Source: Methanobrevibacter sp. UBA412
GTDB lineage: Archaea > Methanobacteriota > Methanobacteria > Methanobacteriales > Methanobacteriaceae
Reading direction: 5' to 3'
DNA: 64,000 nucleotides
NCBI GenBank assembly: GCA_002495685.1
Contig: DAGJ01000002.1
Span: 12,442 to 76,441, forward strand
The position numbers and the translations under genes are program-made. Under the pieces are notes generated by a model. That model had not been told where the DNA came from, did no database searches, and worked only from the letters and a program-made list of their open reading frames with translations. Positions 1 to 61,148 of this stretch are shown here, piece after piece (positions within the stretch are counted from its first letter, which is position 1; the number at the start of each line of letters is the position of its first letter).

Positions 1-3000
1 TACTATTAAGTCTATTTTAAAGAGAAGCAGTTGCATTATATACAATAGAAAATATAGTAGGAATTTCTATACTATTAAGTCTATTTTAAAGTATCAACTT
101 CAAGACAATATATATACTCACTTAATGTATTTCTATACTATTAAGTCTATTTTAAAGATATTCATCATTATGATTTGTTTGTTTCAAAAAGTTATTTCTA
201 TACTATTAAGTCTATTTTAAAGTTATCCGTTGCACCTTTTGGGGGTGTTTACGACATGGTATTTCTATACTATTAAGTCTATTTTAAAGTTTTTTTCAAT
301 ATTCATTTTTTAATCTCCTAAAGCTATATTTCTATACTATTAAGTCTATTTTAAAGTAAAACAAATAAATAATGGAGAAATAAGTATTTTAATATTTCTA
401 TACTATTAAGTCTATTTTAAAGATTACTTCAAAGAGGTATATGAAGAAAACCCAATTACATTTCTATACTATTAAGTCTATTTTAAAGAAAAGAGGTTGA
501 AGAGTTAATTAAAGAATATGTTGAAAATTTCTATACTATTAAGTCTATTTTAAAGATTTCATATCGAACACCAAATAGGAACAATATTACACATTTCTAT
601 ACTATTAAGTCTATTTTAAAGGTAACCAGTCTAACTGTTCCAAGTCTGCATCATAACACATTTCTATACTATTAAGTCTATTTTAAAGTTTTATTGCTAC
701 TAGAAATAAAATAACAAGTCTAGTAATTTCTATACTATTAAGTCTATTTTAAAGGAAAACCTGATGCTGTGTCTTCAATTTCGCCTTTATGGATTTCTAT
801 ACTATTAAGTCTATTTTAAAGCCAACAAGTTGTGAATGCTGTATTATTTATCCAGGAATCATTTCTATACTATTAAGTCTATTTTAAAGCTGAGGATAAT
901 AATATTATTGATGAATTCCCTTTAAGTAATTTCTATACTATTAAGTCTATTTTAAAGGATAAAAAAGCTGACCAACTGGGGTAATAATCGAAGTATTTCT
1001 ATACTATTAAGTCTATTTTAAAGTTCTAAATTTTTTAGCTAAGTTTATAAATTTTTTAGCATTTCTATACTATTAAGTCTATTTTAAAGGTTTAACCAAT
1101 CCCAAGGTAAATTTTCAGATTCAACATTTCTATACTATTAAGTCTATTTTAAAGGAAACTGGTATTGACTTTAGTAATTGTATGATACCTGATTTCTATA
1201 CTATTAAGTCTATTTTAAAGATTGTGCTTTGAATGTTTTTGTTTCATTTTCAGGAATATTTCTATACTATTAAGTCTATTTTAAAGTAGTTTCTATTTTT
1301 TCGCTTTTGTTGTTTTCTCTATATTTCTATACTATTAAGTCTATTTTAAAGGAAATCACTAATCCAAGTACAGATTATATTTACTTCCATTTCTATACTA
1401 TTAAGTCTATTTTAAAGTCTCCCATATCGTGTCATAAAACATTCTACTGATGAATTTCTATACTATTAAGTCTATTTTAAAGGTACTTGCTTAATAGTAC
1501 TTTAGTACCCACTACTATAATTTCTATACTATTAAGTCTATTTTAAAGACAGAAAGTTGAAAATAATTATATAACTTTAACTTATTTCTATACTATTAAG
1601 TCTATTTTAAAGCAAAATTCTAAAGAACCATCTGTACTGCAGTCATCAAATTTCTATACTATTAAGTCTATTTTAAAGTGTTCCTGCTGTAACACCCATC
1701 ATTTCCATTATTCCAAATTTCTATACTATTAAGTCTATTTTAAAGTTGATAATATTAGTAGTTATGATCCTGAATATGCTGAATTTCTATACTATTAAGT
1801 CTATTTTAAAGGGGGGTAGTAGTGGGGAATAATTTTTGAACAATAACTATTTCTATACTATTAAGTCTATTTTAAAGTATTTGTACCGCTGCAACATTCA
1901 AGGAAGCTGTTGAATTTCTATACTATTAAGTCTATTTTAAAGCCAGCAACAAAATTTTTCAAAACAAATACAATCAAATTTCTATACTATTAAGTCTATT
2001 TTAAAGTCCAAATAAACAATATTATTGACACCTATAGCTATATTTCTATACTATTAAGTCTATTTTAAAGTTATAAAGAAAAAAATGTAGTAGAAACAAT
2101 AATATATTTCTATACTATTAAGTCTATTTTAAAGTTTCTTTCCATACTTAAAGATTGCACTGCAGAGTATAATTTCTATACTATTAAGTCTATTTTAAAG
2201 CATGCTTATTATAAGCATTTGTTGTTAGCACTTCTTTATTTCTATACTATTAAGTCTATTTTAAAGAATTTGAAGAAAGCAAGAATGATAAAGATTTAGA
2301 CATATTTCTATACTATTAAGTCTATTTTAAAGAAAGATATTTGAAGCTTCAAAAGTCCCTAAATCTCTATTTCTATACTATTAAGTCTATTTTAAAGTTA
2401 ATAGTATCTGTTCTTGTAGTGACTGTTTTACTTGATTTCTATACTATTAAGTCTATTTTAAAGTCAGATACCCTGCTATTTGTAGGGCTGAATGGCTAAT
2501 TTCTATACTATTAAGTCTATTTTAAAGTGGACTTGTGGATATTGTAAAATATACAATCTTAAATATTTCTATACTATTAAGTCTATTTTAAAGACAGATA
2601 GCAATGGGAACTTAACAATATTAATAGAATATTTCTATACTATTAAGTCTATTTTAAAGAAGAATTCAGCAACATCGTAACAAGTGAACATGAATATTTC
2701 TATACTATTAAGTCTATTTTAAAGATACATCTTCGCTACTTGCCATCGTGTTTATTTTCCCTATTTCTATACTATTAAGTCTATTTTAAAGAACTCGCGA
2801 ATTTGTGTTATATAGATATAGATTTTTCATTTCTATACTATTAAGTCTATTTTAAAGTTTCCTGCTTCTAATTCAAATAGGAATTGTAGAAGGTATTTCT
2901 ATACTATTAAGTCTATTTTAAAGGGAATTGTAGAAGGTTAAAACCTTCTAAAGCTTCCCATTTCTATACTATTAAGTCTATTTTAAAGCCAAATATAGAA

Positions 3001-3716
3001 AAGGTTGTAAGCTGCAAAACTAAAACATTTCTATACTATTAAGTCTATTTTAAAGCTAAATTTAGGTTTTTAAAACCTATTTTATTATTTGATTATTTCT
3101 ATACTATTAAGTCTATTTTAAAGGTTTGTGTGTTTGTGTGTAATGTATTACTATTATGTCATTTCTATACTATTAAGTCTATTTTAAAGGTAGTAACTGC
3201 AACATCACCAAGATAATATAACACTATTTCTATACTATTAAGTCTATTTTAAAGAAAACCTATAGGAGCTAAATATGGTTCCCTGTTCCCATTTCTATAC
3301 TATTAAGTCTATTTTAAAGCCTTTTTTATGGAAAACTTTAGTTCTTGAATTTCCAAATTTCTATACTATTAAGTCTATTTTAAAGATTTTGAAGAAGAAA
3401 ACGAAAATATATATTTTTTTGAATTTCTATACTATTAAGTCTATTTTAAAGTTGTTATACAAAAAGAACAGATTTAAAACCGGAATTACATTTCTATACT
3501 ATTAAGTCTATTTTAAAGTAATAATCTTCAAAAAAGTATTACCTAAAAAAATTTAATTTCTATACTATTAAGTCTATTTTAAAGCAAAACCTTTATATAC
3601 TGGTGGGTACTAAAGTACTATATTTCTATACTATTAAGTCTATTTTAAAGATTCTTTGCATAGTACAACGTTTCCGGCGCCGTGGTCATTTCTATACTAT
3701 TAAGTCTATTTTAAAG
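1..3716 (-). CRISPR. Type I-B CRISPR array, 57 repeats, truncated at left edge
   Basis: The 29-bp repeat, read on the plus strand, begins ATTTCTATAC and ends TTTTAAAG. I count 57 copies (first one only its last 22 bases, last one at 3688-3716) and 56 spacers of about 36-40 bp. All copies look identical, with no decayed terminal repeat. Read on the minus strand the repeat ends in ATAGAAAT, which resembles the 8-nt 5' handle of other type I-B crRNAs, so transcription is inferred to run right to left, in the same direction as the cas operon. The leader would then be at the right end and the newest spacers near 3688. The array continues beyond base 1. Confidence 0.97.
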
Positions 3717-3820: not shown

Positions 3821-4093
3821 CTAAAAAATAAAATTTATTGGATTTTTTTCGATTCCTAGTATATGTTTTTTTAAATATTTTTCTGGTATTTCATATATGA
3901 ATATGGAATCTGTTTCTTCATTTATTAATTCTTTTAATTTATCCATTATTTTTGTGTATTGTGATTGGGTTACTTCTCCTTCAAATACTGAGTTTTGTTG
4001 CCAATGCAAATGTGTTCTTAGGAATTTATGTACTTTGTTTACTCTGTCTACATTTACATCATATACTATTATTAAGTATATTTTTACCACCAC
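3821..4093 (-). CDS. cas2: CRISPR-associated endoribonuclease/integrase subunit Cas2
   Basis: This 90-residue protein has the usual Cas2 length and ferredoxin-like opening, with the conserved aspartate in the motif IVYDV near residue 12. Cas2 dimers bridge two Cas1 dimers to form the spacer-integration complex. The gene overlaps the end of cas1 by 10 bp, so the two are translationally coupled, and it is the last gene of the operon before the leader. The C-terminus ends in a short strand (PINFIF) that in the family docks onto Cas1. Confidence 0.95.
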   Translation of the reverse strand: MVVKIYLIIVYDVNVDRVNKVHKFLRTHLHWQQNSVFEGEVTQSQYTKIMDKLKELINEETDSIFIYEIPEKYLKKHILGIEKNPINFIF

Positions 4094-5064
4094 ATTTTAA
4101 AGCTTTCATATTTTTTATCATTCAAGACGTGTTTGATTAGTTTGTATCCTTCGAGTCTAATTAAGTAGCGGTAGGATACTTTTTTATTGAGATTGGGGTG
4201 TTTTATTGTTGTGTCCATCTTTTTTTGGTATTCTTGTATGAATTTTTGTTTGCCTTTTTGGTTTAATAGGACTCCTATGTTTGTTGTGAAATCTTTTTTT
4301 GTGATTTGATTTGTGTTTATTAGTTTGAATATGATTCTGCTCACTATTATGGGTTTGAATATGTCTGCTAGGTCTAATGCTAATGAGAATCTTCGTTCGG
4401 AGGGTTCGTGGAGGTAACTTATGGAGGGGTGTAGGTAGGTGTGGTATATTTCGGATAGTGTTGTTGTGTATAGTAGGGAGTTTCCGAATGATATTAATGC
4501 GTTTAGTTCTGTTGTTGGTGGTCTTATTTCTCTTTTTCCCATTTCGAAGTTTTTTACTATGGTGTTGAAGCTTTGGTAGTAGTTTTGCCATATTCGGCCT
4601 TCGCTGCTCATTATTTGATTTATATCTCCTTTTATGTTTTCTTTTTCAATGTTATTGATGTAAAGGTTTAAATCTTTCCCTTTTTTGGAGTAATATTTTA
4701 ATGTGGTTAGAATGTTGAATCTGATACCTTCTACTATTTCTTTTGCTAGGTATTGTCTTTTTTGTTTGTCTATGTAATGTGCTGATTGGTTTACTACTAC
4801 TAGTCCTGAGTTGAATTGAATTCTGGGGTATAGTGATCCTTCGTAGTAGCCGTATTTGTTGAAGAAGTTTATTATTATTCCTTCTTTCATTAGGTATGAT
4901 GCTGCTCCTGATTTTATTGTTACTTTGGCTTCACAGTTTATTTCATTTATGGAGTGGATTGGTATTGCTTGTTTGATTTCTTTGTTTATGAAGAAAATTG
5001 TGTTGTCTTTTCTTTGGATTATTCCGTTGCTTGTTAAATATAATGGTTTTTTAATTTTACTCAC
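4084..5064 (-). CDS. cas1: CRISPR-associated integrase Cas1 (type I-B)
   Basis: Cas1 is the metal-dependent integrase that inserts new spacers at the leader end of the array. The 326-residue protein starts with the family opening KKPLYLTSNG...RKDNTIFF. Near residue 150 is SSEGRIWQNYY, carrying the first catalytic Glu. Near 205-225 is the conserved helical stretch LNALISFGNSLLYT, followed by HPSISYLHEPSERRFSLALDLADIFKP with the catalytic His and Asp. The start codon is GTG, in an AAGGTGAG context. It lies just downstream of cas4 with an 18-bp gap and overlaps cas2, matching the usual adaptation module of type I-B loci. Confidence 0.97.
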   Translation of the reverse strand: MSKIKKPLYLTSNGIIQRKDNTIFFINKEIKQAIPIHSINEINCEAKVTIKSGAASYLMKEGIIINFFNKYGYYEGSLYPRIQFNSGLVVVNQSAHYIDKQKRQYLAKEIVEGIRFNILTTLKYYSKKGKDLNLYINNIEKENIKGDINQIMSSEGRIWQNYYQSFNTIVKNFEMGKREIRPPTTELNALISFGNSLLYTTTLSEIYHTYLHPSISYLHEPSERRFSLALDLADIFKPIIVSRIIFKLINTNQITKKDFTTNIGVLLNQKGKQKFIQEYQKKMDTTIKHPNLNKKVSYRYLIRLEGYKLIKHVLNDKKYESFKMWW

Positions 5065-5082: not shown

Positions 5083-5589
5083 TTATATCATGCATAATTC
5101 ATAAAATGAACAATTCTTGCAATAGGGTCTTTTTTCTGCTTTGGGAGGTGTTTTTAAATTAATGATATGTGGTATATCTTCTATTATTTTAAATATTTCT
5201 TCTTCTATTTCATTTGTTAATATTATTTCATCTTTTTTCTTTTCTTTAGGATATACTAAATATCCTTTAACTTCTTGATTCATACTTTTCTTAGTATTAT
5301 ACATATAAAAATATAATTGGTACTTAGCTCCAATTGTTAATTTACTTGATTTTTTAATTTCAAAAATATTAATACCTTCATTAGTTTTTACATAATCAAA
5401 TACCATATTATCAAATTGGATTTCCTTATTCTCCCTAGAATAAGATTTTTCATGAATATACTTACCAATACTTATATCTTCATTATTATAATTCATGTTA
5501 ATTTGATTTGCAAAAAACCATAATTCTCTTTTACAGGTAACATAATACTGGACCATAACCCCAGTTATTGGAATATTATTCATAGTCAT
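5083..5589 (-). CDS. cas4: CRISPR-associated exonuclease Cas4
   Basis: Cas4 is a RecB-like PD-(D/E)XK nuclease with an iron-sulphur cluster that trims prespacers and selects PAMs. The protein has the N-terminal YYVTCKRELWFFA motif with the first cluster cysteine. It continues with a core containing FEIKKSSKLT, the (D/E)xK pair, and ends with the C-terminal cysteine triad CKNCSFYELC. The longest frame begins with TTG at 5598. I prefer the ATG at 5589 (or 5583), which follows the TGA of cas3 directly. No strong Shine-Dalgarno sequence is visible. It sits between cas3 and cas1, as expected for type I-B. Confidence 0.94.
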   Translation of the reverse strand: MTMNNIPITGVMVQYYVTCKRELWFFANQINMNYNNEDISIGKYIHEKSYSRENKEIQFDNMVFDYVKTNEGINIFEIKKSSKLTIGAKYQLYFYMYNTKKSMNQEVKGYLVYPKEKKKDEIILTNEIEEEIFKIIEDIPHIINLKTPPKAEKRPYCKNCSFYELCMI

Positions 5590-5594
5590 AATTA

Positions 5595-7997
5595 TCAAAT
5601 AATAAAAGCTTCTTCATCATCTTCAAAAATAAAACCAGTTTCAATATCATATTTACGAGCAATATCTTCAGGGGCAATGAATCCTAACCAATCATTACAA
5701 ATATTAGTAGAACCAAATTTTTTAGAACTTATAGAAATTATATAATTATAAAATTCAGCTTTGATTTTTAAAAACAATTCTTTTTTCTTAAAATTATTTT
5801 CACATTTTTCCATGTCATTAAATTTTTCCCACAATAATTGGCTTTCTTCGTCGAAGTTTACAAACACATCAATCTTTTCAACTGTTTCTTCTATTAATTT
5901 AAAATCTGATGAGATTTTACCTAAATTTAACTCCTTAATAATTTTTAATAAATTTTTATCTTGACTTCCATTCTTTAATAAGATTTTATTATATTCTTGT
6001 GAAGTGATTAAGTTGAATTCTTTCTCAGAACAAGATTCTTGTTTCTTAAGTAAATCAATAGTACTACTTAATAATATGGAATCATAAACCATTCGACTAA
6101 ATTTTCGACCTTTATCATTTATTAAGGATATAACATTCACTTCCCCTTTAATTTTTTCATTATTACGATTACATCGTCCAGCAGTTTGAATTATAGAATC
6201 TATAGGGGCTAAATCCCGATAAATAATATCAACACTAATATCAACACCTGCTTCAATTAATTGAGTAGTGATAATAATTTTCCTTTTTCCCTCTTTTTTC
6301 AATTCATTTATCCTTGATAATCTATGCTTTGGTATTATGTTAGTAGATAAATAAACCAAATTAATAGTATCTGAAATATTAACAATACCATTAACTGTAT
6401 CAACAATAATATTTTCATACTGATCTTCAAATCTTTCTTTAATATAAGTATAAACATCTTTTGAAGATTGTATTGTGTTTAAAACAATCATAATATCCTT
6501 TTCAGGATTATTCACTATTTCATCAATAATAAAGTCTTTAAAATCATTTAAATTCATATCTTCTAAATTAAAATTATAATTTACACGATTAAAAACTGTG
6601 AAATATTCATCCTTAGAAATTAAAGGTAAAATTTCACCGTTTTCCTCACTGAAAATTAAAGGTTGTGTTGCAGTCATTAAAATAATCCAACAATTAAATT
6701 CATTGGCTAATTTTTTAAGACAAATATTAAGAATATTCCAATATTTATAGGGAACTGCTTGAATCTCATCTAAAATTATAATTGAATTCACCATATTATG
6801 AAACTTACGAAGAGATCTATTCTTATTACTAATTAAACTATAAAAAAATTGTATAAAAGTAGTTACAATGATTTCACTATTCCAACCTTCAATTAAAATA
6901 CGAACATTGTTTAAATTTAATTCTTTATTATGATTTGATTCTGTTGTGTATTTCATATCAGATAAATAATTATGTTTAAGTAGAGCATTAGTATCTTTAA
7001 TACCATCAGTATGAAGAACATCACGAATAACTTTCTCATTTTGATCTATTATACTTAAAAATGGTAAGGAATAAATTATACGGGGATTGAAATTTTTTTC
7101 TTCTTGAATTCTTTTTTTAAGTTTTAATGCAAAATTAAAAGCAGCTAAAGTCTTACCTGAACCAGTTGGTAAATCAATACTATAAATATGTTTATTTAAA
7201 TCTAAAATTGGAACTTTTTGATTAATTTCATGATACGCTTTCTCACGAATACAATTTATACCCTCTGATTTTAAACCAAACTTTTTCATTTTGTATAAAT
7301 CCACAATATCCGAAGGAATATTTGGCCTATTAAATAATTCTGTTTGTGAAGCATCAATTTTATCTGAATCAATTAACATAGAATATAATAATATTAAAGT
7401 AAAATAATTTTCAATATTTTCATCAAAAATAATATCATCTAGTGATTCTTCAATTTCATCTAAAATATCATTATAACTATTTATAAAATCGTTTAGATTT
7501 ATATCATAAGTTTCATAAAATTTTCTTAAATCATATCCATTATTATTTTTAATATTATTTTTAATATTTTCTACTTGTTTTTCTCCAAGGTCATGATTTA
7601 AGCTAACTTTGTTAAGTTCTCCAGAGGTTCCTGAAATATTTTTAAAATCCCCATGATGTCTTAGAATAACTAAATAAGTTAAACTACTTAAATCTAAATC
7701 AAAACTAATATTATTTTTACTTAAATAATTCTTAACAACATAATAACCAAAAACTGCAGATAAAAATCCATGATTTTTAAGCTGACTTTTCTTACCATCA
7801 TTTAAATATTCTTGAAAAAAAGTAGTGGATTTAGCAAAATCATGACATAAACCAATAAAAAAAGAAATTTGAGTATAAAGATTCTTATCATTTATACTTA
7901 AATTTTTACAAAAACTTTCACAATTACAAGCCACATTCAACAAATGCTCTTCTAAACTTTTACTAGGATGAGATTTTAGTTTAGAATAAGATAACAT
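5595..7997 (-). CDS. cas3: Cas3 HD nuclease-helicase (type I-B)
   Basis: Cas3 is the effector recruited by Cascade to unwind and degrade target DNA. The roughly 800-residue protein has an N-terminal HD nuclease domain (EEHLLNV, then GLCHDFAKS). The superfamily 2 helicase follows: Walker A LPTGSGKT near residue 280, the DEAH-type box LDEIQAVP near 410, motif III MTATQP, ITTQLIEAGVDI, and motif VI QTAGRCNRN near 610. The longest frame begins with TTG at 8009. The ATG at 7997, preceded by GGTGGGGATA, is the better start. It overlaps the end of cas5 by 17 bp. Confidence 0.96.
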   Translation of the reverse strand: MLSYSKLKSHPSKSLEEHLLNVACNCESFCKNLSINDKNLYTQISFFIGLCHDFAKSTTFFQEYLNDGKKSQLKNHGFLSAVFGYYVVKNYLSKNNISFDLDLSSLTYLVILRHHGDFKNISGTSGELNKVSLNHDLGEKQVENIKNNIKNNNGYDLRKFYETYDINLNDFINSYNDILDEIEESLDDIIFDENIENYFTLILLYSMLIDSDKIDASQTELFNRPNIPSDIVDLYKMKKFGLKSEGINCIREKAYHEINQKVPILDLNKHIYSIDLPTGSGKTLAAFNFALKLKKRIQEEKNFNPRIIYSLPFLSIIDQNEKVIRDVLHTDGIKDTNALLKHNYLSDMKYTTESNHNKELNLNNVRILIEGWNSEIIVTTFIQFFYSLISNKNRSLRKFHNMVNSIIILDEIQAVPYKYWNILNICLKKLANEFNCWIILMTATQPLIFSEENGEILPLISKDEYFTVFNRVNYNFNLEDMNLNDFKDFIIDEIVNNPEKDIMIVLNTIQSSKDVYTYIKERFEDQYENIIVDTVNGIVNISDTINLVYLSTNIIPKHRLSRINELKKEGKRKIIITTQLIEAGVDISVDIIYRDLAPIDSIIQTAGRCNRNNEKIKGEVNVISLINDKGRKFSRMVYDSILLSSTIDLLKKQESCSEKEFNLITSQEYNKILLKNGSQDKNLLKIIKELNLGKISSDFKLIEETVEKIDVFVNFDEESQLLWEKFNDMEKCENNFKKKELFLKIKAEFYNYIISISSKKFGSTNICNDWLGFIAPEDIARKYDIETGFIFEDDEEAFII

Positions 7998-8694
7998 TAT
8001 CCCCACCAATCTTATAATAATCAGCAGACTCTAACTGAATACTTTTAGTATTCTCTTCAAAATAAAACTCTTTAAAACTTGTAACAACCCTATTTGAATC
8101 CATAAAACAAGGAGTTTTAATCAAACCATACTTCCGATCAGATTCAATAACCAAATTATGACCCTCTTTAGGTATTACAGAATCAACACAAACATTATCA
8201 CCATTAACTTGCTTCAATTCAATAAAATCATCACCAACCATACTAAAATTAGCAATACACTCACTAATACCAAGATATGGAGTGTAAATTGATTTATGAT
8301 TCCACAGTAAATCATATAACTTACCCATTAATTCCTGATCTTCTAATCCTACATAAATCCGATACTTTGGATTCTTTAAAAATTCAGCTTCAACTTGGGA
8401 ACGCTTACCCGGACCACGAATATCATGTAAAAAGAAACCTTCCTTAGTGTTAATATAATTTAAATTAAAATGAACCTTTTTTATAGGATTTAAAATATTT
8501 ACCCCAATTTTACTATTTTCCTCATCAAAAATATCATAATATGAATCCCTAGGCAAACCAAGCATAGCAGATATTAAACCTGCAACAGTAGTCCTACTAG
8601 GGAAAGGATAAGAGATAGTGGAAGTAGTAGTATATCCTCTACGAAAATAACCATAATCCGCCCATACATCAAAGGCTAAAACTTTACTTATCAT
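7981..8694 (-). CDS. cas5: Cascade subunit Cas5 (Hmari/Tneap type)
   Basis: Cas5 is the Cascade subunit that binds the 5' handle of the crRNA. The start MISKVLAFDVWADYGYFRRGYTTTS is typical of the Cas5h branch, followed by SYPFPSRTTVAGLISAMLGLPRDSY, the conserved Cas5 segment. The glycine-rich stretch DIRGPGKRSQVEAEFL lies near residue 105. The longest frame opens with TTG at 8715. The ATG at 8694 fits both the family N-terminus and a GGAGG at about 12 nt upstream. It lies 39 bp after cas7 and overlaps cas3. Confidence 0.95.
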   Translation of the reverse strand: MISKVLAFDVWADYGYFRRGYTTTSTISYPFPSRTTVAGLISAMLGLPRDSYYDIFDEENSKIGVNILNPIKKVHFNLNYINTKEGFFLHDIRGPGKRSQVEAEFLKNPKYRIYVGLEDQELMGKLYDLLWNHKSIYTPYLGISECIANFSMVGDDFIELKQVNGDNVCVDSVIPKEGHNLVIESDRKYGLIKTPCFMDSNRVVTSFKEFYFEENTKSIQLESADYYKIGGDNVILF

Positions 8695-8733
8695 TTTCCC
8701 ATAAAACCTCCCCAATAAAAAAGAAAAATTCTT

Positions 8734-9690
8734 TTATAATTCTTCAACACTAATACCTAAACCTTTAATAGCATCTAATAACTTATCAGATGATTCATAA
8801 TTAAAGAATTTAACATCACTATCAAACTTATAATAAACCTTACTAATCTTATCTTTTTCTTCTTCTAAATTACTTAATAACTTATTTAAGTTAATTTCAA
8901 CTTGGTTAATATTACGAATCAATTTACTATCATCTAAATCATAATTTATACTTACTTTATTGTTTAAATCCCCAATAAAATAATTTTCCTTATATTCTAT
9001 TTGAAGTAATAAACGTGGTACTTGACCAAATTTAGAACGTGTAATTAAATTCTTAGTACCATCCCAAATACCTTCAAGTAATAATCCAACATCATTATCA
9101 CTCATACCAGTATCCTTTGCAGCAATCTCATTAACCACACCATAAAAACCAATCAAACTATAAGGTAAAATATACTCTTCACGAAATGTTTTCTGATCTT
9201 TACCTGCACCAGATGCAAAACCACCAGTACCTTTAATATGATTAATTTCAACCTGATTAAGAGAACGACCCATACGGAACTGAACAGGACCAGTTAAAGT
9301 AACACTACTCTTCTCCTTCTTAGTCTTAACCTTTGGTTCTATTGGAATAGTTGCACCAAATAATCTAACATCAACACAATCTTGTATTACATTTGCTTTA
9401 ATATCTTCTCTTGCCTCAGTTAAAGATTCATATTTTTCTTTAGTTAAAAATTTATCTGCTCTTTGCTTAGCATCATTTAATTTACCCTCATTATCAAAAG
9501 TATCAGTAATGAAAATTTTCTCATCCTTATAATCTCTTAAATAATCACGTATAGTTCTTTTTAAACGAACATCAGTTACAAGGTTAGTTTCTGTTTCTTC
9601 ATCTAATCTTGGCTTATTACTATCTAATGGATCACCATTAGGATTTGCATCATTTATATCATATAAAAATAAAATCTCAGATCTATTCAT
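8734..9690 (-). CDS. cas7: Cascade backbone subunit Cas7 (Csh2)
   Basis: Cas7 forms the helical backbone that coats the spacer part of the crRNA. The 318-residue protein begins with RSEILFLYDINDANPNGDPLDSNKPRLDEET and VTDVRLKRTIRDYL, the signature of the Csh2/Cas7b branch. Further conserved segments are DCVDVRLFGATIP near residue 110 and TGPVQFRMGRSLNQV near 135. The ATG start is 2 bp downstream of the cas8b stop, so translation is probably coupled. Because each Cas7 leaves every sixth guide base unpaired, this subunit matters for reading the pseudo-spacer discussed at 14846-14928. Confidence 0.96.
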   Translation of the reverse strand: MNRSEILFLYDINDANPNGDPLDSNKPRLDEETETNLVTDVRLKRTIRDYLRDYKDEKIFITDTFDNEGKLNDAKQRADKFLTKEKYESLTEAREDIKANVIQDCVDVRLFGATIPIEPKVKTKKEKSSVTLTGPVQFRMGRSLNQVEINHIKGTGGFASGAGKDQKTFREEYILPYSLIGFYGVVNEIAAKDTGMSDNDVGLLLEGIWDGTKNLITRSKFGQVPRLLLQIEYKENYFIGDLNNKVSINYDLDDSKLIRNINQVEINLNKLLSNLEEEKDKISKVYYKFDSDVKFFNYESSDKLLDAIKGLGISVEEL

Positions 9691-9692
9691 AC

Positions 9693-11528
9693 TTATTCAC
9701 CTTCACCATTTTCTTTATCTTTTTCTTTTTTATCATTCACTGCATAAGCAAGTGTATAACCTAAAACAAAATAATAACTTATTTCATCACGACTTAACTT
9801 CCAATTATTCTCCGCATGCATTAAATTAGCACTAATATTCTCCTCTAAAACAGGATAAGCACTATCATATTCCCGTAACTTACTAAAAACCATAGGATAC
9901 AATTTAATTATCTTATTCTTATCTAATGATAATCCCCATAATTTATTAATAAATGGAGAAGATCCCAATTCTTTATATTGTTTATATGTTAATTTACGAG
10001 TTAAATCACCTAATAAGAAAACTGCTTTCTTATCAGGAGCATCCAAGAAATCATCAATAATTGATGAATCAGACTTCAATTCTTCACTATCTTCTAAATT
10101 TATCTTCATAATTTTTTCTCCTTTTAATAAATCTAAATTATTAAAAAATAATATTAAAGCAAAAGACTTCAAAACAGGCACACTAATACCATAACCTTGT
10201 CTCCAATTCTCACGAATCTTATTCATAAAATGAGTTAATAAAAAACCATAATCCAATTTCTTCTCACTCATAACATCAGTTACAATACCTAAATAATATG
10301 TTCGAGAATAACTACTGAAAAAATCACGTAAAAAACTCAAATACCAATTATAATTAGTAACCGTTGCAAACTTATTACTAAGATTACTGATTGTTACGAA
10401 ATCTCCCTCTTTATCCTTTCCTAATACTTTCTTCATATTCTCTTCATTAAAAAATTCTAACCTACTAATACTTAATTGATTATCATAAATTTCACGCATC
10501 CAAGAAGGCAATACACTTTCAACATAAGCTAAAATATCAAAAGCATTATTACTAGATTGATAAAATAAAAACTTAAATTCTAATATATTCCCTAATTTAT
10601 CAACAATACCAGCTAATTTATCTTCACGAGAAACAAGATCAGCACGATAAGTTAAATACTCATCCTCACGACTCAAATACTTATATATTTCATCAAAACC
10701 TTGACGAGGATTCACCAAAAAGTTAGGTATCACATAATAAGTTAACCCAAACTCGGAAAAAGACAAATACTTCTCAACAAACTTCTTACCTGCTTCTAAA
10801 TATAAAGCACAATCACCACAAATAGGTAACTGCTTCCATTGATCCTTAACTAATAAACCAGGAACATTACCTGGCTTATCAGGAGTAGAAAATGAAAAAC
10901 CTATACTATTTGACACTAAACCATAAACTTCCTTCTGTTCATCACATAAAAAACAAACACCATCACCTTTAACCTTATTACTGCCTTTTTTATAATATTT
11001 AATAGTAGCACTAGAAATCAAAACATTCCTAAAAGCTTCATAATCACCAATAAACTTCAAATCACCACCAAGACTTATAAAACCAATAGTCAAAAGAACA
11101 TTAACTTTTTCAGATAATAATTCAAACTTTTCCCCAATATCCTTAGTAATTATATCCTGATTTTCAATTAAACAAGTATTAATTTGTTTAAAAAAATCAT
11201 CCTCACTTTCATGATTAATAAACCATTTAAAAAACTTATTAGGCAAAGTCTTACCCAAATCCGTAATCAAACAAGAAGGAGTAATATCAGTACCACGAGA
11301 AGAACCACCACGATACAGATACTTAGGATTATCATCACTATCATAATCACGTTCAACTACACCAGCATACTCCAAATTACCCTTATCTTCTTTTAACTCA
11401 ACAACTAAAACTGACTTAGTTCTCTTTGCAAGTTTACTCGCATCCAATAAAACATTAATCTTATCCAAATCTTCTTTCTCAATCCATAACTTACCAATTT
11501 CATATAATGCATTTAACAAAACACTCAC
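9693..11528 (-). CDS. cas8b: Cascade large subunit Cas8b (Csh1/TM1802 family)
   Basis: Cas8b is the type I-B large subunit that recognises the PAM. The 611-residue protein carries the zinc-binding pairs of the Csh1/TM1802 family: CFLCDEQ near residue 190 and CGDCALYLEAGKKF near 237. It is otherwise helical, ending in an acidic and lysine-rich tail (NDKKEKDKENGEGE). Family length and position between cas6 and cas7 agree. Its start ATG overlaps the cas6 stop by 4 bp (ATGA). Large subunits diverge quickly, so the subfamily assignment rests on the cysteine motifs plus context. Confidence 0.9.
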   Translation of the reverse strand: MSVLLNALYEIGKLWIEKEDLDKINVLLDASKLAKRTKSVLVVELKEDKGNLEYAGVVERDYDSDDNPKYLYRGGSSRGTDITPSCLITDLGKTLPNKFFKWFINHESEDDFFKQINTCLIENQDIITKDIGEKFELLSEKVNVLLTIGFISLGGDLKFIGDYEAFRNVLISSATIKYYKKGSNKVKGDGVCFLCDEQKEVYGLVSNSIGFSFSTPDKPGNVPGLLVKDQWKQLPICGDCALYLEAGKKFVEKYLSFSEFGLTYYVIPNFLVNPRQGFDEIYKYLSREDEYLTYRADLVSREDKLAGIVDKLGNILEFKFLFYQSSNNAFDILAYVESVLPSWMREIYDNQLSISRLEFFNEENMKKVLGKDKEGDFVTISNLSNKFATVTNYNWYLSFLRDFFSSYSRTYYLGIVTDVMSEKKLDYGFLLTHFMNKIRENWRQGYGISVPVLKSFALILFFNNLDLLKGEKIMKINLEDSEELKSDSSIIDDFLDAPDKKAVFLLGDLTRKLTYKQYKELGSSPFINKLWGLSLDKNKIIKLYPMVFSKLREYDSAYPVLEENISANLMHAENNWKLSRDEISYYFVLGYTLAYAVNDKKEKDKENGEGE

Positions 11529-12244
11529 CTTTTATTATTAAGCATCCCAAAACCAAGACTATTCTTCTCACCTAAACCAACATCAAAAAGGAACTGATAA
11601 AAACCCTTATTACCCTGATTTAAATCAAACTCTAAACTATTCCATAAACTACCAATAATCAAAAAGGAATTACCCTTCTTACTAACTTTAACTGCAACCT
11701 CCTTCTTAAAACTAAAACTATTAAACAATTCACCATCCAAAACAAAATCATCATCAGTAAAAGCATTAAACTTCTTTAAAGCATTATCCAACAAACGATT
11801 GAAGAAAAAATCAAAATCAGGACCAGACTTAAAACTATAATACCTATTAACCGTATTATCTTCAAACAATACAATAGGAGTACTAGTAATCAAACAAGAC
11901 CCCACCCTAGTCCTTAAAAATCTAACACTTACAAGAGTAAAATAAAACTTATTCAAACGAAACCCATCTAAACCATCTAAAGAATCATTCAAAACCTGAA
12001 TAAACAAATCATTAGGAGAAGAAACAATCAAACTTCGAACATCACCCACCTTAAAATCCGCAACAGGAAAAATATTACTAAAATTAAAAAACTTAAAACC
12101 CCGAACATTATGATAAACTGACAAATCAGTACCCTTCAACAAAGAATACAAAAAACCCTGAACATCATACTTACCAATACAAGAATACTCCAAATCAGCA
12201 CAAGATTTAAATTTAATAATCAAACGACTAATAATATCACCCAC
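11525..12244 (-). CDS. cas6: CRISPR pre-crRNA endoribonuclease Cas6
   Basis: Cas6 cuts within each repeat to release crRNAs and would also process the crRNA-like element at 14846-14928. The 239-residue protein ends with the glycine-rich Cas6 signature GLGEKNSLGFGMLN, and contains the N-terminal YSLLKGTD region with a following His (VYHN) that may be catalytic. The start is GTG with no Shine-Dalgarno sequence. A TTTATAAT box lies about 25 nt upstream, consistent with a leaderless transcript and with the cas operon having its own promoter separate from the ATPase gene 57 bp upstream. Confidence 0.93.
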   Translation of the reverse strand: MGDIISRLIIKFKSCADLEYSCIGKYDVQGFLYSLLKGTDLSVYHNVRGFKFFNFSNIFPVADFKVGDVRSLIVSSPNDLFIQVLNDSLDGLDGFRLNKFYFTLVSVRFLRTRVGSCLITSTPIVLFEDNTVNRYYSFKSGPDFDFFFNRLLDNALKKFNAFTDDDFVLDGELFNSFSFKKEVAVKVSKKGNSFLIIGSLWNSLEFDLNQGNKGFYQFLFDVGLGEKNSLGFGMLNNKR

Positions 12245-12301: not shown

Positions 12302-14539
12302 TTAAAATAAAATTTTTGATAAATTTTTAACATTATCAAATAATTTAATTAAATACTCAATATCCATATCTAAAATGGGTTCATACATAAAGGAATTTAA
12401 ATGAATATTCTCAGGAGTCATAATACAAACTTGTTTTAATATTTCCCTATTTTTTTCATCATTTTCCGTGCTGAATTCTTCCTTAAAAATTTCATATAAT
12501 GTTCTTGTTTGATTTCTTTTAATTTCATTTGTATTATTCAAACTATCCAACATAAACTTTTCAGCATGTAATCTTATAGCCATTGAAAGAACAATTTTAT
12601 TTTCTAAAAGAATACCATTCATATCATTATCCGTTTTAATTTGTATTGCTTCATTATAAATTAAATTATAAATTGTGTCTTCAGAATTAATAACTGGCAT
12701 GTCCCATTTTTCATAAATTGGTTCAAGATCTTTAACTTTTAATTTTTCCCCATCTTCTTTAAAATGTAAAATTGAAGTTAATAAATTTTTATCATCCTTA
12801 TTTCCAGCTAATTCAGATAAATTACGTAAAAATGGAATAATAGATAAAAATGCTTTTTTTGCATTGTGTTCTGTTTCTATATCAGATTTTAATTTAAATA
12901 GTATATTGTCTTTATTTTCTAAATTAGGTTTAATTAATTTAATATCAAATTCATTTTTAACTGCAAAAAATGAACTTTTAGATAAACTTAATCTTGATTT
13001 AACTGTTCTGAAAAAATCATAATTATGAGTTAGAATAATTGATTTGAAATTAGAACTATGTGATAAATCATACAAATATTCTATAATTGCATATTTATTT
13101 TCATAATCAAATGAGTCCGCGATATCATCAAAAATTAAAAGAACATCTCTTCCGGTTTTTTTCAATAATTCAATTTTGTATAGAATATTCAGAAGATATA
13201 ATGCTCTTTTTTGACCCGCACTATAAAAAGTTTTTAATGTTTCAAAATTTACAGAGCTAACCTCTTCATTATTCAAATATTCTTTATCAGGTTTTAGATT
13301 AAAAACTATATTAGGTAATTCGTCATTTAAAATTATATCTTTTTTATTTTCAATTTCCAAAAGAAATGGAATTTTAAATCTTTGATTAAAAAGATCTACA
13401 ACTTCTTCCCAATCAGTTCTTTCTTTTTCCACAGAAGTTTTAATTTTATTAATTTTGTTTTTATTATTTTTATACAATACAATTAAATCATTATACAAAT
13501 CTCTTTCATTATTTAAAATAGAAAGCCAAAACTCTTTTCTTAAATTAAATCTATTTTCCTTTTTTAGTCTTACTGCAAAGAGAGGATTATCAAGTAAATA
13601 ACTTCTAAGATTTTTTATATCATTATTTCCAGTTAATTGCTTATTGATTAAATCAAATTTAGTTTTTATATTTTCATCAGACATTATATCTTCAATTTGT
13701 TTATCTAATAAACTTTTTAATTCATCAATACTTTTTACTTCTTCATTAACACCTCCAAATTTAATGGAATGCCCTGCTTTAAATAGATTATTAGTTTTAA
13801 TATTTTTATATAAATTTTCAGCATTTACATTATCAAAATTATCTTTATCATAAATTTTTGAGCTTTTTAATAAAGCATTTAAAGCATTAACATACCCATT
13901 AATGTTTTGTACCAACTCTTCATTATCTAAAATTTTTATAACTTTTTCACTAAATAAATTATTATATTTCAATTTTAAAACATCAACATTGTTATTCTTA
14001 CTTAAATTTTTTTCAACATCAATCATTAATTCTAAAAAAGACTTATTTTCACAAGAGAAATCTTGTAAAATTTTTTTTTCTATAAAATCTTCTTGATTTT
14101 GATTTTTAGGTACTGATATTTTAGAAATCTTTTTAATTTTTTTAAATAATTCCTTTCGTTTTAACAAAATTTCACTAATAAGAGTTTCATATTCTTTTTT
14201 ACTTTTATCATTAACCATTAATGAAGAAATATTATCAAAATTATATTCATCATCAAATGATTGAATTACTAAAATATTATTTTTAAAATCTTCTGATTTT
14301 AATAAATCAAACTCATTATTTTCATTATAAATTTTTACATTATGTTCTGGATCTTTTTTAGTGAATTCATTAATAGGTTCTTTACCCTCACTCAAAAATA
14401 AAAAAGTCTTAGCGAATGAAGTTTTCATAGTGCCATTAGATGCATAAATAAGTGTTGAATTATTATTATTAAAATTAAAAGTGTGTTTTAACTTATTTAT
14501 TCCATTACAATTTTTAAATTTAACATCAATTTTATTCAT
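12302..14539 (-). CDS. PrrC/AAA_13-like SMC-type ATPase, candidate anticodon nuclease
   Basis: This protein is about 745 residues long. It has an ABC/SMC-type ATPase split by a coiled-coil-rich insert. Numbered from the GTG at 14548, these are Walker A YASNGTMKTSFAK near 36 (a Met replaces the usual Gly before Lys), signature SAGQKRAL near 444, Walker B VLLIFDDIADSFD near 470, and H-loop ILTHN near 505. The C-terminal 240 residues contain R682-x3-E686 and H716 followed by LNSFMYEP. That order and spacing is close to the catalytic Arg-Glu-His triad I recall for PrrC anticodon nucleases. The ATG at 14539 is preferred over the GTG because AGAGGTGA lies 6-8 nt upstream. The nuclease activity is inferred. 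The gene sits directly upstream of cas6, and its promoter carries a match to the divergent crRNA-like element. Confidence 0.75.
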   Translation of the reverse strand: MNKIDVKFKNCNGINKLKHTFNFNNNNSTLIYASNGTMKTSFAKTFLFLSEGKEPINEFTKKDPEHNVKIYNENNEFDLLKSEDFKNNILVIQSFDDEYNFDNISSLMVNDKSKKEYETLISEILLKRKELFKKIKKISKISVPKNQNQEDFIEKKILQDFSCENKSFLELMIDVEKNLSKNNNVDVLKLKYNNLFSEKVIKILDNEELVQNINGYVNALNALLKSSKIYDKDNFDNVNAENLYKNIKTNNLFKAGHSIKFGGVNEEVKSIDELKSLLDKQIEDIMSDENIKTKFDLINKQLTGNNDIKNLRSYLLDNPLFAVRLKKENRFNLRKEFWLSILNNERDLYNDLIVLYKNNKNKINKIKTSVEKERTDWEEVVDLFNQRFKIPFLLEIENKKDIILNDELPNIVFNLKPDKEYLNNEEVSSVNFETLKTFYSAGQKRALYLLNILYKIELLKKTGRDVLLIFDDIADSFDYENKYAIIEYLYDLSHSSNFKSIILTHNYDFFRTVKSRLSLSKSSFFAVKNEFDIKLIKPNLENKDNILFKLKSDIETEHNAKKAFLSIIPFLRNLSELAGNKDDKNLLTSILHFKEDGEKLKVKDLEPIYEKWDMPVINSEDTIYNLIYNEAIQIKTDNDMNGILLENKIVLSMAIRLHAEKFMLDSLNNTNEIKRNQTRTLYEIFKEEFSTENDEKNREILKQVCIMTPENIHLNSFMYEPILDMDIEYLIKLFDNVKNLSKILF

Positions 14540-14573
14540 AAAAATCACCTCTAAATATTAATTATTCTTTTTA

Positions 14574-14607
14574 CTATATAAAGTTTATTATGTATTATAT
14601 TACTAAA
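14574..14607 (-). promoter_or_regulatory. ATPase promoter with crRNA-like target site
   Basis: On the minus strand a TATA box CTTTATATAG spans 14574-14583, about 25 nt upstream of the AGAGGTGA that serves the ATG at 14539. Immediately upstream, 14607 down to 14587 matches the first 21 nt of the pseudo-spacer at 14875-14899 except at positions 12 and 18. The first 11 nt, TTTAGTAATAT, are perfect. The bases preceding the match are TTA, the candidate PAM. Cascade bound here would cover the TFB/TBP landing site and block transcription. The match is seen directly; the repression is inferred. Confidence 0.6.
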
Positions 14608-14713
14608 TAAAAATTTATTGAAAATATTATTAATAAATATAAATTCAAAATTGGATTTTTTCAAAAAAACAATTATCACTATTAAATTATTTAACATAGT
14701 ATATAAATATACA

Positions 14714-14724
14714 ATATTACTAAA
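14714..14724 (-). promoter_or_regulatory. Second copy of the pseudo-spacer seed, upstream of another TATA box
   Basis: On the minus strand this reads TTTAGTAATAT, preceded again by TTTTTA, so 17 nt are shared with the site at 14597-14607. Beyond the 11-nt seed the match to the pseudo-spacer is poor. A TATA-like TTTATATA follows at 14707-14700. A transcript from here would read through a 48-codon AT-rich frame (ATG at 14697, TAG at 14551) toward the ATPase gene, but that frame may be chance. Confidence 0.35.
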
Positions 14725-14815
14725 TAAAAAAAAATAAAAAAATAAAAAATTTTACTATAAAATATACAATAAAAATTAAAAAACGATTTTTCCAATATAT
14801 TTAACAAAATCAATA

Positions 14816-14826
14816 AGTATAAATAC
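14816..14826 (+). promoter_or_regulatory. TATA box of the crRNA-like element
   Basis: AGTATAAATAC at 14816-14826 is a good archaeal TATA box. Its centre is about 26 bp from the first base of the degenerate repeat at 14846, so transcription would begin at or next to that repeat. This placement is what would be expected for an independently transcribed mini-crRNA gene and is hard to explain for a random array remnant. Confidence 0.5.
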
Positions 14827-14845
14827 CATTATAGCATATTATAGT

Positions 14846-14928
14846 TTTTAAAATACACTTAATAGTATAGAAATTTTAGTAATATCATACAAAATTTTAC
14901 TTTAAAATAGACTCAATAGTATAAAAAA
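14846..14928 (+). ncRNA. CreA-like crRNA gene: degenerate repeat, 25-nt pseudo-spacer, degenerate repeat
   Basis: In crRNA orientation the array repeat begins CTTTAAAATAG and ends TAGTATAGAAAT. Bases 14846-14874 match it at 27 of 29 positions, and 14900-14928 at 26 of 29. The mismatches fall at the first base and position 11 of copy one, and at position 15 and the last bases of copy two. The 25-nt pseudo-spacer at 14875-14899 is clearly shorter than the 36-40 nt array spacers. The element is oriented opposite to the main array and divergent from the ATPase gene. Paired degenerate repeats with a short spacer, near cas genes, are the known form of CreA antitoxin RNAs. An ordinary decayed two-repeat array is the alternative. 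Confidence 0.65.
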
Positions 14929-15142
14929 ATAAAAAAATAAAAACTCTTTAAACATCATTTTAAATAAAACTAAAAATCTAAAATCTTCAAGCATAATTTT
15001 AACTAAAAAAATTAATAAAATTTACAAAACCTAAAAAATTAGTTTAAAAAAAGGAATTGATATAAATATTACAAATAAGTAATTAGAATTTTAAAAAAAA
15101 TAGCATTATTATTTAATTATAATTAAAGTAAATCATAATTTT
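14929..15142. other. AT-rich intergenic stretch
   Basis: I see no gene, RNA or clear signal in these 214 bases between the crRNA-like element and the MITE relic. They are dominated by A and T runs. Confidence 0.5.
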
Positions 15143-15248: not shown

Positions 15249-15542
15249 TTAAACTTTAACTGCATCCGTTTTCACAAGATTAAACATTTCTTGAACATTA
15301 TCAGAAATGTTTTCTTCAGTTACAGGTATATTTAATAATTTTTTTCGTGAACCATATTCTTGAGCAAATGATCTACTCATAAACTTAACATTTTTAAAAT
15401 CCATTACAATTTTTTCATACTCTTTATTTTCTAATTGTTTAAATAAATTTTCAGCATTTAATCTTATACCTAAATTAGAGGTAAATAAATCTGCTAAGTA
15501 TATTTTTTTAATATTCAATTTTTTCATACCTCCCCAATACAC
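15249..15542 (-). CDS. STAS-like domain protein (DUF4325 type)
   Basis: The product is 92-97 residues. The core EKIVMDFKNVKFMSRSFAQEYGS is the typical strand-helix junction of DUF4325 STAS-like proteins. These small alpha/beta proteins often sit near histidine-kinase-like or defence genes, but their role is poorly known. Two starts are possible. The first ATG is at 15542. A second at 15527 directly follows GGGGAGGT and leaves almost no spacer for ribosome binding, so I keep the longer form. It stands alone between the CRISPR region and the island, on the same strand as both. Confidence 0.65.
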   Translation of the reverse strand: MYWGGMKKLNIKKIYLADLFTSNLGIRLNAENLFKQLENKEYEKIVMDFKNVKFMSRSFAQEYGSRKKLLNIPVTEENISDNVQEMFNLVKTDAVKV

Positions 15543-15716
15543 ATTTTTTTTAATGAACTTTAATTAAATTAAATTTAATAAATTGATAAAATAATTTTAT
15601 TTATTCATATAATTATAATTCTATTTTCATAAAAGTTTTTGAATATAAATAAAAATAATCATTAACTTTTTTTAAACTAATTTAATTATTCTAAATATTA
15701 TAGATAATGTTTTACT

Positions 15717-16210
15717 TTTTACTTAATTTTAATGACTTTCTTCTAAATGTTACATTTTTATAGAAAAACACTTTTTTTTAATGTTCAAAATGTTACATAT
15801 ATAACTATGAATTTATCATACTATTTATTGAATAATATATTAATATTAAATAAATTTTAATATTTTATATTAATTTGTATAAATGTTACATTGTTACCTT
15901 TTTCTGGAGAGGGTGCCCCCTTATATAATAATATAATATAATTTATATTTTTTTTATATGAATTACAAAAAATTCTCACTATAAGGGGGGCTCTTATTTA
16001 AAATTTAAGTAACTTTTAAAAAAATATTAATATAAAGGTTCCGTTTTAAAATCTAAGAATTTTAAGGTTAGATAAGCGTTACTTTTTTTAAGGTAACTTT
16101 CAGGTAACAGTATTAAAAATGTAACAGTTTTTAAAATATTTTTAAAATATTTAAGAAATCTTTAAACCTTATAATATAATCTTAAAATTATTAGATTAGA
16201 AAAAACATAG
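15717..16210. repeat. Left copy of about 0.5-kb direct repeat, origin-like
   Basis: This segment is repeated in the same orientation at 27309-27905. ATGTTACAT occurs at 15747, 15790 and 15883, and the inverse ATGTAACA at 16119, with GGTAAC at 16092 and 16103. Between them an inverted repeat, CCCCCTTATA at 15916 and TATAAGGGGGG at 15980, encloses about 55 bp of nearly pure A/T. Opposed iterons around an AT-rich core is the usual build of a replication origin. No initiator gene is adjacent. Other readings are integrated plasmid ends or an insertion target. Confidence 0.7.
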
Positions 16211-16580
16211 TTTTTAAAAATGAATTTGGATAACATAAGCCTAAAAATTATAGAAAACTTTAAAAACTCATCATTAGTGTAATTGTTTCCCCCCATAGTT
16301 TTAAAAGTTTTATCTAAAACTTCCACTTCTTTTCAGTATTTGGTTTCCTGTATCAAAATCTAGATTTGTAATAAATAAGACTTTTTTTTAATTTTTCTAA
16401 TTAGATTAAGTTTTTTTTGATGATGGATTTATGCAAAAATCATGATTTGGTACAGTAGTAAACCGTTCTGTATAATTTATTTGATCCGTGTTTTTACTTT
16501 TCATTTGGTATTTATTAATACTTATACAATCATTTTTTTCTCCTATGATTTTTTTGATAAGAGAATATTAAATGTGAGAT
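16211..16580. other. Intergenic stretch without recognised content
   Basis: These 370 bases between the left direct repeat and the PIN gene have somewhat higher sequence complexity than the repeat. I find no frame of convincing length and no RNA gene. They may be decayed coding DNA. Confidence 0.4.
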
Positions 16581-17261
16581 TTAATTAAAAATAAACTTTC
16601 CAGAATTAATAATTTTATAAACCTTTGAATTATCTATTAAAACTTCAGAATTATCAATAAAACCTTTATTTGCTGAAACAAAACATAAATTTTTAATAGG
16701 TTTATTTAATGCTAAATCATGAGCTTCTAAAAATATTGTTAAATCTAGTTCATGAAGTAAATTACGAATATTCTTCTCTAATTCCTCATCCCTTTTTTCC
16801 ATTGTATGAATTATTAATTTTTCATTACAATATGTTTTAGATTTATAGAAAATTTGGAGGAAATAATTTTTAACTTCCTGAACATTATTTATAATTTTAT
16901 CAATATTAATTTTATTTTCATAATATTCATTAGATTTCTCCCAAATCAAATCTATTATCTGATTTTCATTAAAATCAAATTTTTTAAAATTAGTTAATAA
17001 AGATTTAAAACTGGATTTATTCATTAATTCATAATTTTTAGAAGTTTTCTTAGACTTTCTTAATTCATTTAATAATAAATTGATAAAATCTGAAAAATTT
17101 TTCTGAATTTCTGATGATTTTTTTTCACTTTCACCTTTAACGGTTTGTGAGTAATATTTTGGATTGTTTGATTCAATAAAACGTTTTACATTTTCGTGTT
17201 GAGGTTCCCATAAAAAATAGTAAGAAATTATAACATTAGTGTCAAAAAAGTAAGATTCCAC
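16581..17261 (-). CDS. PIN-domain protein, putative ribonuclease
   Basis: The N-terminus VESYFFDTNVIISYYF carries the first PIN aspartate and the following Asn. The C-terminal part has LDLTIFLEAHDLALNK and LCFVSANKGFID, with further acidic residues and the SxN-type strand of the fold. PIN domains are metal-dependent RNases, often toxins. The longest frame starts with TTG at 17276. A GTG at 17261, 9 nt after GGAG and directly after the stop of the upstream gene, is a better start, giving 226 residues. A helical insert of about 120 residues makes it longer than VapC toxins. The gene is tightly coupled to the 188-residue protein upstream. Confidence 0.7.
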   Translation of the reverse strand: MESYFFDTNVIISYYFLWEPQHENVKRFIESNNPKYYSQTVKGESEKKSSEIQKNFSDFINLLLNELRKSKKTSKNYELMNKSSFKSLLTNFKKFDFNENQIIDLIWEKSNEYYENKINIDKIINNVQEVKNYFLQIFYKSKTYCNEKLIIHTMEKRDEELEKNIRNLLHELDLTIFLEAHDLALNKPIKNLCFVSANKGFIDNSEVLIDNSKVYKIINSGKFIFN

Positions 17262-17262
17262 T

Positions 17263-17829: not shown

Positions 17830-17935
17830 TACACTTCCATAAAAAAATAGAACTCTTTTTTTAATATTATATTATTAACTAAAAACATATATAATTTTTG
17901 GATTTAATAAAATTTTTCTGTCAAAAAAATTACTT

Positions 17936-18901: not shown

Positions 18902-18903
18902 AA

Positions 18904-22656: not shown

Positions 22657-22810
22657 GGAAAACGCTCCAATTTTTTATTTTTTTCTTTAAACATGCATTT
22701 TTTCTTGTTTTTAAAAAGTGTAATATACATAAACAAATTTTACATCAGCAATATTTTCGATTCAATAAATCCCTCTGTTTAGTTATTGTTTTTAAAATAC
22801 AAAAAATTTA

Positions 22811-22831
22811 AGATAGTAATTATTACTATCT
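22811..22831. promoter_or_regulatory. Perfect 21-bp palindrome, possible operator
   Basis: A GATAGTAAT T ATTACTATC T at 22811-22831 is a perfect inverted repeat with one central base. It lies about 155 bp upstream of the STAND gene and before the plus-strand promoter at 22909. With no U-tract following it, an operator for a dimeric regulator is more likely than a terminator. Confidence 0.45.
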
Positions 22832-22908
22832 AAAAGTATAACTCTATATTCTTGACTTTTTCTTAGAATAATTTATTTATATTTAATATATTTTCAAGCA
22901 ATAGTTTA

Positions 22909-23443: not shown

Positions 23444-23454
23444 TGAGGTTAAAT

Positions 23455-24851: not shown

Positions 24852-25000
24852 AAGAAAATTTAAAAAAATTTAATTAAAATTATGGTTATGCCAAGAAAAC
24901 TAAATTTTTATACAAATTACTGAATATATAATAATCATTAATTTTTTTTATTTAACAAATCCCAAAAGAATTTTTTTTAATAAAATAAAGAGGTGTATTT

Positions 25001-61067: not shown

Positions 61068-61148
61068 TTTTACATTTTTACTATTTTTTTATAAAAAAAT
61101 GGCATGTTCAAAAGTGGACATAATTCAACGATGTTGGTTATCTTAAAA

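Follow-up and report, generated by a model that had tools for sequence, protein, structure and literature searches.

Cascade-guided repression has been described for RNA toxins (CreTA), cas genes (CreR) and a KilA-N protein toxin (CrePA), according to a review of the field (PMC12737573). CreTA modules of type I-B systems in Haloarcula and type I-F systems in Acinetobacter combine a small-RNA toxin, which contains a Shine-Dalgarno-led mini-ORF, with a guide in which two degenerate repeats enclose a short pseudo-spacer. The guide has a PAM-flanked partial match to the target that controls the toxin gene, and the module lies beside or within the cas locus. For CreA of H. hubeiense, guide nt 1-5 and 7-11 were reported to be required and nt 6 and 12 to be dispensable (PMC8501985). 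In haloarchaeal CreA the 5' handle is kept in the first repeat, psiR1, and decayed in the second, psiR2 (PMC9458426). In CrePA, the same review reports, a crRNA-like guide and Cascade repress a protein toxin, CreP, which is freed when anti-CRISPRs disable Cascade; CreP is typically a KilA-N protein that blocks cell division. A guard of similar logic operates by protein contact in PrrC, which is held silent by the associated restriction enzyme EcoprrI and freed when a phage inhibits EcoprrI (PMC2610378, PMC3710099). PrrC, RloC and other ABC-HEPN proteins are ABC ATPases with a C-terminal R-x3-E-xn-H motif. In RloC this triad reads R-x3-E-x36-52-H, and neither tRNA cleavage nor toxicity survived the replacement of any of its residues (PMC2610378). 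Sporadic occurrence inside CRISPR-Cas neighbourhoods is described for a further ABC-HEPN group, ERFG_01251 (PMC3710099).

Here we describe a mini-CRISPR in a type I-B locus. Its spacer matches, next to a TTA PAM, the promoter of a gene for a PDC-S46 ATPase, and we predict with fair confidence that the element guides CreA-like repression by Cascade. It resembles CreTA in its short pseudo-spacer between two degenerate repeats, in the PAM-flanked partial match and in its position at the cas locus. Unlike CreTA, in which the toxin is a small RNA, a 745-aa ATPase stands behind the targeted promoter. Moreover, the guide is encoded on the other strand, behind a presumed promoter of its own, and its repeats have 24/29 nt in common, compared with 11-19/30 in the haloarchaeal cases. 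The likeness to CrePA lies in a crRNA-like guide that would act with Cascade on a protein-coding gene; the differences are the two promoter sites found here and the protein itself, an ABC ATPase with an RloC-like triad.

The window, by which we mean the whole 64-kb stretch of DNA that was analyzed, has an AT content of 74% and contains the type I-B cluster cas6-cas8b-cas7-cas5-cas3-cas4-cas1 together with a long array. All of these elements are on the minus strand: cas6 (11525..12244), the first gene of the cluster, cas8b (9693..11528), cas7 (8734..9690), cas5 (7981..8715), cas3 (5595..8009), cas4 (5083..5598), cas1 (4084..5064) and a small ORF in the place of cas2 (3821..4093), named from its position alone. 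The main array (63..3716) consists of 56 full repeats, all of them perfect copies of the consensus CTTTAAAATAGACTTAATAGTATAGAAAT (crRNA orientation), and 55 spacers of 35-39 nt; an extra partial repeat runs off the window start. The ATPase gene (12302..14539) directly precedes cas6, shares its strand and is separated from it by 57 bp. The archaeal SRP RNA at 61096-61409 marks the host as an archaeon. Among the matches listed, the closest named relative of the ATPase is from Methanobrevibacter and those of Cas6 are from Methanobrevibacter and Methanosphaera. Beside the CRISPR locus, a defence-island-like neighbourhood extends from 15249 to 26548, with a STAS-like DUF4325 ORF (15249-15542), a weakly PIN-like ORF (16581-17276), a TIR protein (17936-18901), an nSTAND3 protein of 1,250 aa (18904-22656) and a TPR-HEPN_LA2681 protein (25001-26548). 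An inverted repeat at 15916-15989 was noticed by eye. Its 10-nt GC-rich arms, CCCCCTTATA (15916-15925) and TATAAGGGGG (15980-15989), stand in otherwise AT-rich, non-coding DNA, and it is possibly a mobile-element end or a strong terminator.

The ATPase matches the PADLOC profile PDLC05023 (PDC-S46, a phage-defence candidate) with 677.6 bits over profile positions 1-718 of 719, and so do 24 of 24 proteins in an alignment that includes it. The protein has no Pfam match, and no relative of solved structure was found by sequence. ABC motifs are conserved (N35, G36 and K39, S440, G442, D471-D472, H505), and the C-terminal part contains a candidate triad, R656-x3-E660-x52-H713, with a spacing that lies within the RloC pattern. 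In the window protein and 69 relatives the three residues are kept in 70, 69 and 70 of the 70 sequences. The E-to-H spacing varies from 49 to 56 across this set and is 53-56 in 27 sequences, just beyond the published RloC range. An earlier note on this DNA had called the triad PrrC-like; this holds at the level of the motif, and the kinship to PrrC and RloC is putative. A second set, R572-x3-E576-xn-H592, is also conserved (70, 65 and 70 of 70) and could be an alternative active site. The window ATPase has no CxxC zinc hook, which in RloC sits in a coiled-coil insert; a CxxC is present in 4 of the 70 sequences, at residues 514-521. The C-terminal block T708-P709-x2-I712-H713-x-N715-x-F717-x2-E720-P721 is invariant in all 70 proteins and may be part of the active site of this uncharacterised defence family. 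The candidate triad suggests a putative RNase.

In the AT-rich intergenic stretch beyond the ATPase gene, a lone repeat-spacer-repeat unit was found on the plus strand at 14846-14928. The first repeat, psiR1 (14846..14874), agrees with the array consensus at 27/29 positions, differing at repeat positions 1 and 11, and its last 8 nt (14867-14874) form an intact 5' handle, ATAGAAAT. It is followed by a pseudo-spacer of 25 nt (14875..14899) and by psiR2 (14900..14928), which agrees at 26/29 positions and differs at 15, 25 and 29. Outside the array, no further stretch of the 64-kb window resembles the repeat at more than 21/29 positions. Two of the three changes in psiR2 fall within its last 8 nt, in a handle for which psiR2 has no need. 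The decay pattern is as in haloarchaeal CreA, which, with five changes in all, is agreement and not proof. Comparison of the array leader with the stretch before psiR1 revealed short AT matches only, and no clear plus-strand promoter was seen for the mini-CRISPR. The predicted mature guide RNA can fold with -4.1 kcal/mol, the handle and the start of the guide pairing with the 3' part of the guide, and such a fold might hinder guide function.

The native PAM was derived from the array itself. Two spacer pairs, s12/s13 and s2/s34, show overlaps of 15 and 26 nt, as would be expected of spacers acquired from one sequence or virus or from close relatives of it. The sequences before the protospacer at three junctions, AGGTTTTA, CTTGCTTA and AACCTTTA, all end in TTA; the first comes from an exact overlap and the other two from one pair, with a 26-nt overlap that includes 2 mismatches. 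These junctions imply that the native PAM is TTA, on the basis of two spacer pairs and no external protospacer. In the literature, TTA appears among the I-B PAMs, where it is given with Methanosarcina (PMC8482600). Five spacer-derived patterns gave no match in viral contigs, and in a phage collection one weak match only was obtained (74%, E 0.3). The spacer of the mini-CRISPR is itself preceded by AAT and not by TTA, so the element would spare itself.

Type I effectors flip out guide positions 6, 12 and 18, which leaves 18 readable positions in the first 21 nt. At the main target, P2 (14587..14607, minus strand), guide nt 1-21 match with mismatches at 12 and 18, being exact at 1-11, 13-17 and 19-21, while nt 22-25 are unmatched. 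The match begins exactly at the repeat-spacer junction, with spacer nt 1, and is flanked by TTA at 14610-14608. With 18/18 readable positions it is the best non-self match on both strands of the 64 kb; the next best, at 15 sites, reach 14/18. Seven non-self sites in the window pair with the full ten-position seed (nt 1-5 and 7-11), and TTA is present at two of them, 14607 and 14724. Both sites are on the minus strand upstream of the ATPase gene, and each is followed by TTTATATA. The second target, P1 (14714..14724), matches guide nt 1-11 exactly beside a TTA at 14727-14725 and has 13/18 readable positions over 21 nt. Hence, all ten positions required in CreA of H. hubeiense match at P2 and at P1, and the seed meets a promoter next to the native PAM as in CreTA, the PAM being implied by the array and the promoter by the TATA box. 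A seed match within cas6, at 12082, was taken as chance because the PAM is missing (the flank is AAT) and the stretch is conserved at the protein level.

The TATA boxes with the sequence TTTATATA are located at 14575..14582 for the ATPase promoter P2 and at 14700..14707 for the presumed upstream promoter P1, both on the minus strand. Ten copies of this sequence are found on the minus strand of the 64 kb, one of them 27 nt before the 5' end (61409) of the archaeal SRP RNA at 61096-61409, which supports it as a TATA box of the organism. At least two copies also appeared in 252 of 2,000 shuffles of the ATPase upstream stretch; the boxes alone are therefore not rare there. Both boxes stand behind the same 17-nt stretch TTTTTATTTAGTAATAT (P1 region 14700-14730, minus strand). 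Judged from the spacing at the SRP RNA, transcription of the ATPase gene would begin around 14555, and a Shine-Dalgarno sequence, GAGGTGA, with the ATG at 14539 follows just after this predicted start.

The central observations of the earlier note proved correct. It had reported two degenerate repeats flanking a 25-nt pseudo-spacer, which the repeat comparison confirmed, and a guide exact over nt 1-11 at 14607-14597 with only nt 12 and 18 differing over 21 nt, which turned out to be the best match in the 64 kb. The target had been placed right upstream of the ATPase TATA box, and indeed the box (14582-14575) directly follows the 25-nt protospacer (14607-14583). The proposed CreA-like guide at this promoter agrees with the sequence in its TTA PAM, full seed, psiR1 handle and spacer length, and its repressive action is a prediction. 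The second seed and PAM site, at the P1 TATA box, goes beyond what that note had listed.

From these features we infer the following course of guide transcription and processing, Cascade binding, repression, and release upon CRISPR failure. The mini-CRISPR would be transcribed on the plus strand and the transcript cut by Cas6, yielding an RNA of ~54 nt (14867-14920) with an 8-nt handle, a 25-nt guide and a 21-nt 3' part. Cascade loaded with this guide would pair with the plus strand at P2, and at P1 by the seed alone, and cover the promoter; at 14607 it would abut the P2 TATA box and at 14724 it would sit on the upstream box. Given the shortness of the guide and its incomplete pairing, the DNA would not be cut. 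A spacer of 24 bp was reported to repress to ~11% without cutting in Haloarcula, whereas one of 28 bp still cuts (PMC10989794); in Parageobacillus, repression was reported for spacers no longer than 26 nt and cutting for longer ones (PMC10551041). By analogy with these two I-B systems, a spacer of 25 nt falls near or inside the range of lengths that repress rather than cut. As long as Cascade is plentiful, the ATPase would be kept low. Should Cascade disappear, be depleted by other crRNAs or be inhibited by an anti-CRISPR protein, expression of the ATPase would set in, and the protein would act as a second defence line, probably halting translation via its C-terminal RloC/PrrC-like RNase. The full reading is put forward tentatively, at somewhat less than even confidence: by means of one short guide RNA, the CRISPR effector would keep two promoters shut and so silence an anticodon-nuclease-like ATPase that serves as a second line of defence.

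The guide-promoter step is also part of two other explanations. Cascade might tune its own amount in the manner of CreR, the guide repressing a single ATPase-cas6-cas8-cas7-cas5 transcript on which the ATPase merely rides along. Such a transcript would fit the common strand of the ATPase and cas genes and the 57 bp between ATPase and cas6, and the review reports repression of cas promoters by CreR (PMC12737573), which shares with the present element a crRNA-like guide, a promoter target and the native effector. However, a TATA-like TTTATAAT upstream of cas6, seen by eye within the gap, indicates that cas6 may have its own promoter. Furthermore, no seed-complete TTA site lies in this gap before cas6; the target here is the ATPase promoter. 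The ATPase and cas genes may nevertheless be co-transcribed, and autorepression of this kind is possible, though on the unlikely side.

Alternatively, the locus could be an addiction module following CreTA logic with a large protein toxin, in which the ATPase or a P1-driven product is poisonous whenever it is made and loss of Cascade kills the cell. The anatomy of the guide is the same as in CreTA, the second site lies at an upstream promoter-like box, and toxicity of RloC, lost in triad alanine mutants, was shown in E. coli (PMC2610378). In contrast to CreTA, no Shine-Dalgarno-led mini-ORF lies between P1 and P2 (minus strand 14700-14540, the ATPase start aside); the open frame starting at 14697, at most 48 codons long, has no Shine-Dalgarno sequence. 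Other carriers of the ATPase also argue against addiction. We compared 87 further loci: 80 from species genomes, which are a sample comprising the best 80 of 499 relatives, 6 from viral contigs and 1 that repeats the L071 gene. Two of the loci, L071 and L081, represent one and the same gene, and a single strain is the source of both L012 and L016. None of the 87 had cas genes nearby at E 1e-4, with flanks of more than 8 kb on both sides in 48 of them; the queries were the window's own cas proteins, which may miss distant cas types. At E up to 0.5, one 21-residue cas7 match was obtained (0.006, L022). Repeats flagged in L072, L075 and L077 look like tandem or coding-type repeats rather than CRISPR arrays. 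Within 600 bp upstream of the ATPase, no convincing mini-CRISPR was found in the 87 loci, the best repeat pair reaching 20/26 (L084); the pair in the window reaches 23/26, and 25 shuffled controls gave 14-19. The link between guide and ATPase is therefore known from one locus. Since the family lacks cas genes in 87 of 87 sampled loci, it need not be lethal without CRISPR, and in CRISPR-free loci the ATPase is presumably kept inactive by itself. For the same reason the window ATPase is probably not a constitutive poison, and we consider the addiction reading rather unlikely. That the ATPase is carried without CRISPR elsewhere makes a backup defence, our preferred reading, likelier than addiction, and the neighbouring TIR, nSTAND, TPR-HEPN and weakly PIN-like proteins fit such a backup.

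As to the distribution of the family, none of the best 80 of 499 ATPase relatives is archaeal by title, and a Cas8b scan of genome contigs yielded no archaeal relative. Alignment scans of viral contigs gave 6 loci with the ATPase query (33-36% identity) and 2 distant loci with Cas6, while the CRISPR repeat pattern gave no match in them. A PDC-S46-type ATPase is present in 25 plasmid records.

The match between guide and promoter was compared with several chance controls. Dinucleotide shuffles of the guide never gave 18/18 in 14549-14760 on either strand (0/20,000; 9 gave 17), nor did shuffles scored over the whole window (0/1,500; 18 gave 17). Natural 25-mers with at least 22/25 AT, taken at every third position on both strands with 14500-14940 left out, likewise gave no 18/18 match in 14549-14760 (0/5,430; 12 gave 17). 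When AT-rich 25-mers were taken at every position, 1 of 16,334 matched a TTA-flanked site of 14549-14845 at 18/18, and 4 did so at 17. Since 18/18 is also reached somewhere in the window by 11 of 1,166 local 25-mers from intergenic DNA, a match anywhere in the 64 kb is weak evidence; the weight lies in the promoter position, the PAM and the junction register. The idea that the mini-CRISPR is no more than a defunct remnant of an earlier array, matching the promoter by chance, could draw on the AT-richness of the window, on those 11 local 25-mers and on the single TTA-flanked hit in the promoter region, but it is very unlikely in view of the empty shuffle and natural 25-mer controls for 14549-14760 and of a match register, PAM, retained handle and two TATA-box sites that are mutually consistent.

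The earlier note had stated that no case like this is described. This was too strong, as CrePA is, according to the review, a case of Cascade and CreA repression of a protein toxin (PMC12737573); the novelty lies in the type of protein under control. With no small-RNA toxin found the element is not CreTA, and without a KilA-N toxin, the ATPase having no Pfam match and matching PDC-S46, it is not CrePA; we file it as a variant of CRISPR-guided repression that belongs to neither. The titles and abstracts listed by the searches, which leave subscription journals largely uncovered, contained no report of Cascade control of a PDC-S46 or PrrC/RloC-like gene, and the term PDC-S46 gave no match in the literature search. 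The closest analogy in logic is PrrC, with the same guard arrangement; the difference is that PrrC is held by protein contact, whereas the ATPase would be held by transcriptional repression.

If the proposed control is true, it would extend CRISPR-guided repression beyond tiny RNA toxins, KilA-N toxins and cas genes. The guard principle of PrrC would then have been rebuilt as RNA-guided transcription control, and the ATPase would be armed by every virus able to disable or exhaust Cascade. It also offers a search rule, in which short, mildly decayed mini-CRISPRs beside defence islands are compared with neighbouring promoters using the PAM derived from the array. For the archaeon itself, an adaptive system would be wired to an unrelated innate defence gene, with the second line going up once the first is defeated, and the layers of defence would be ordered by RNA-guided transcription.
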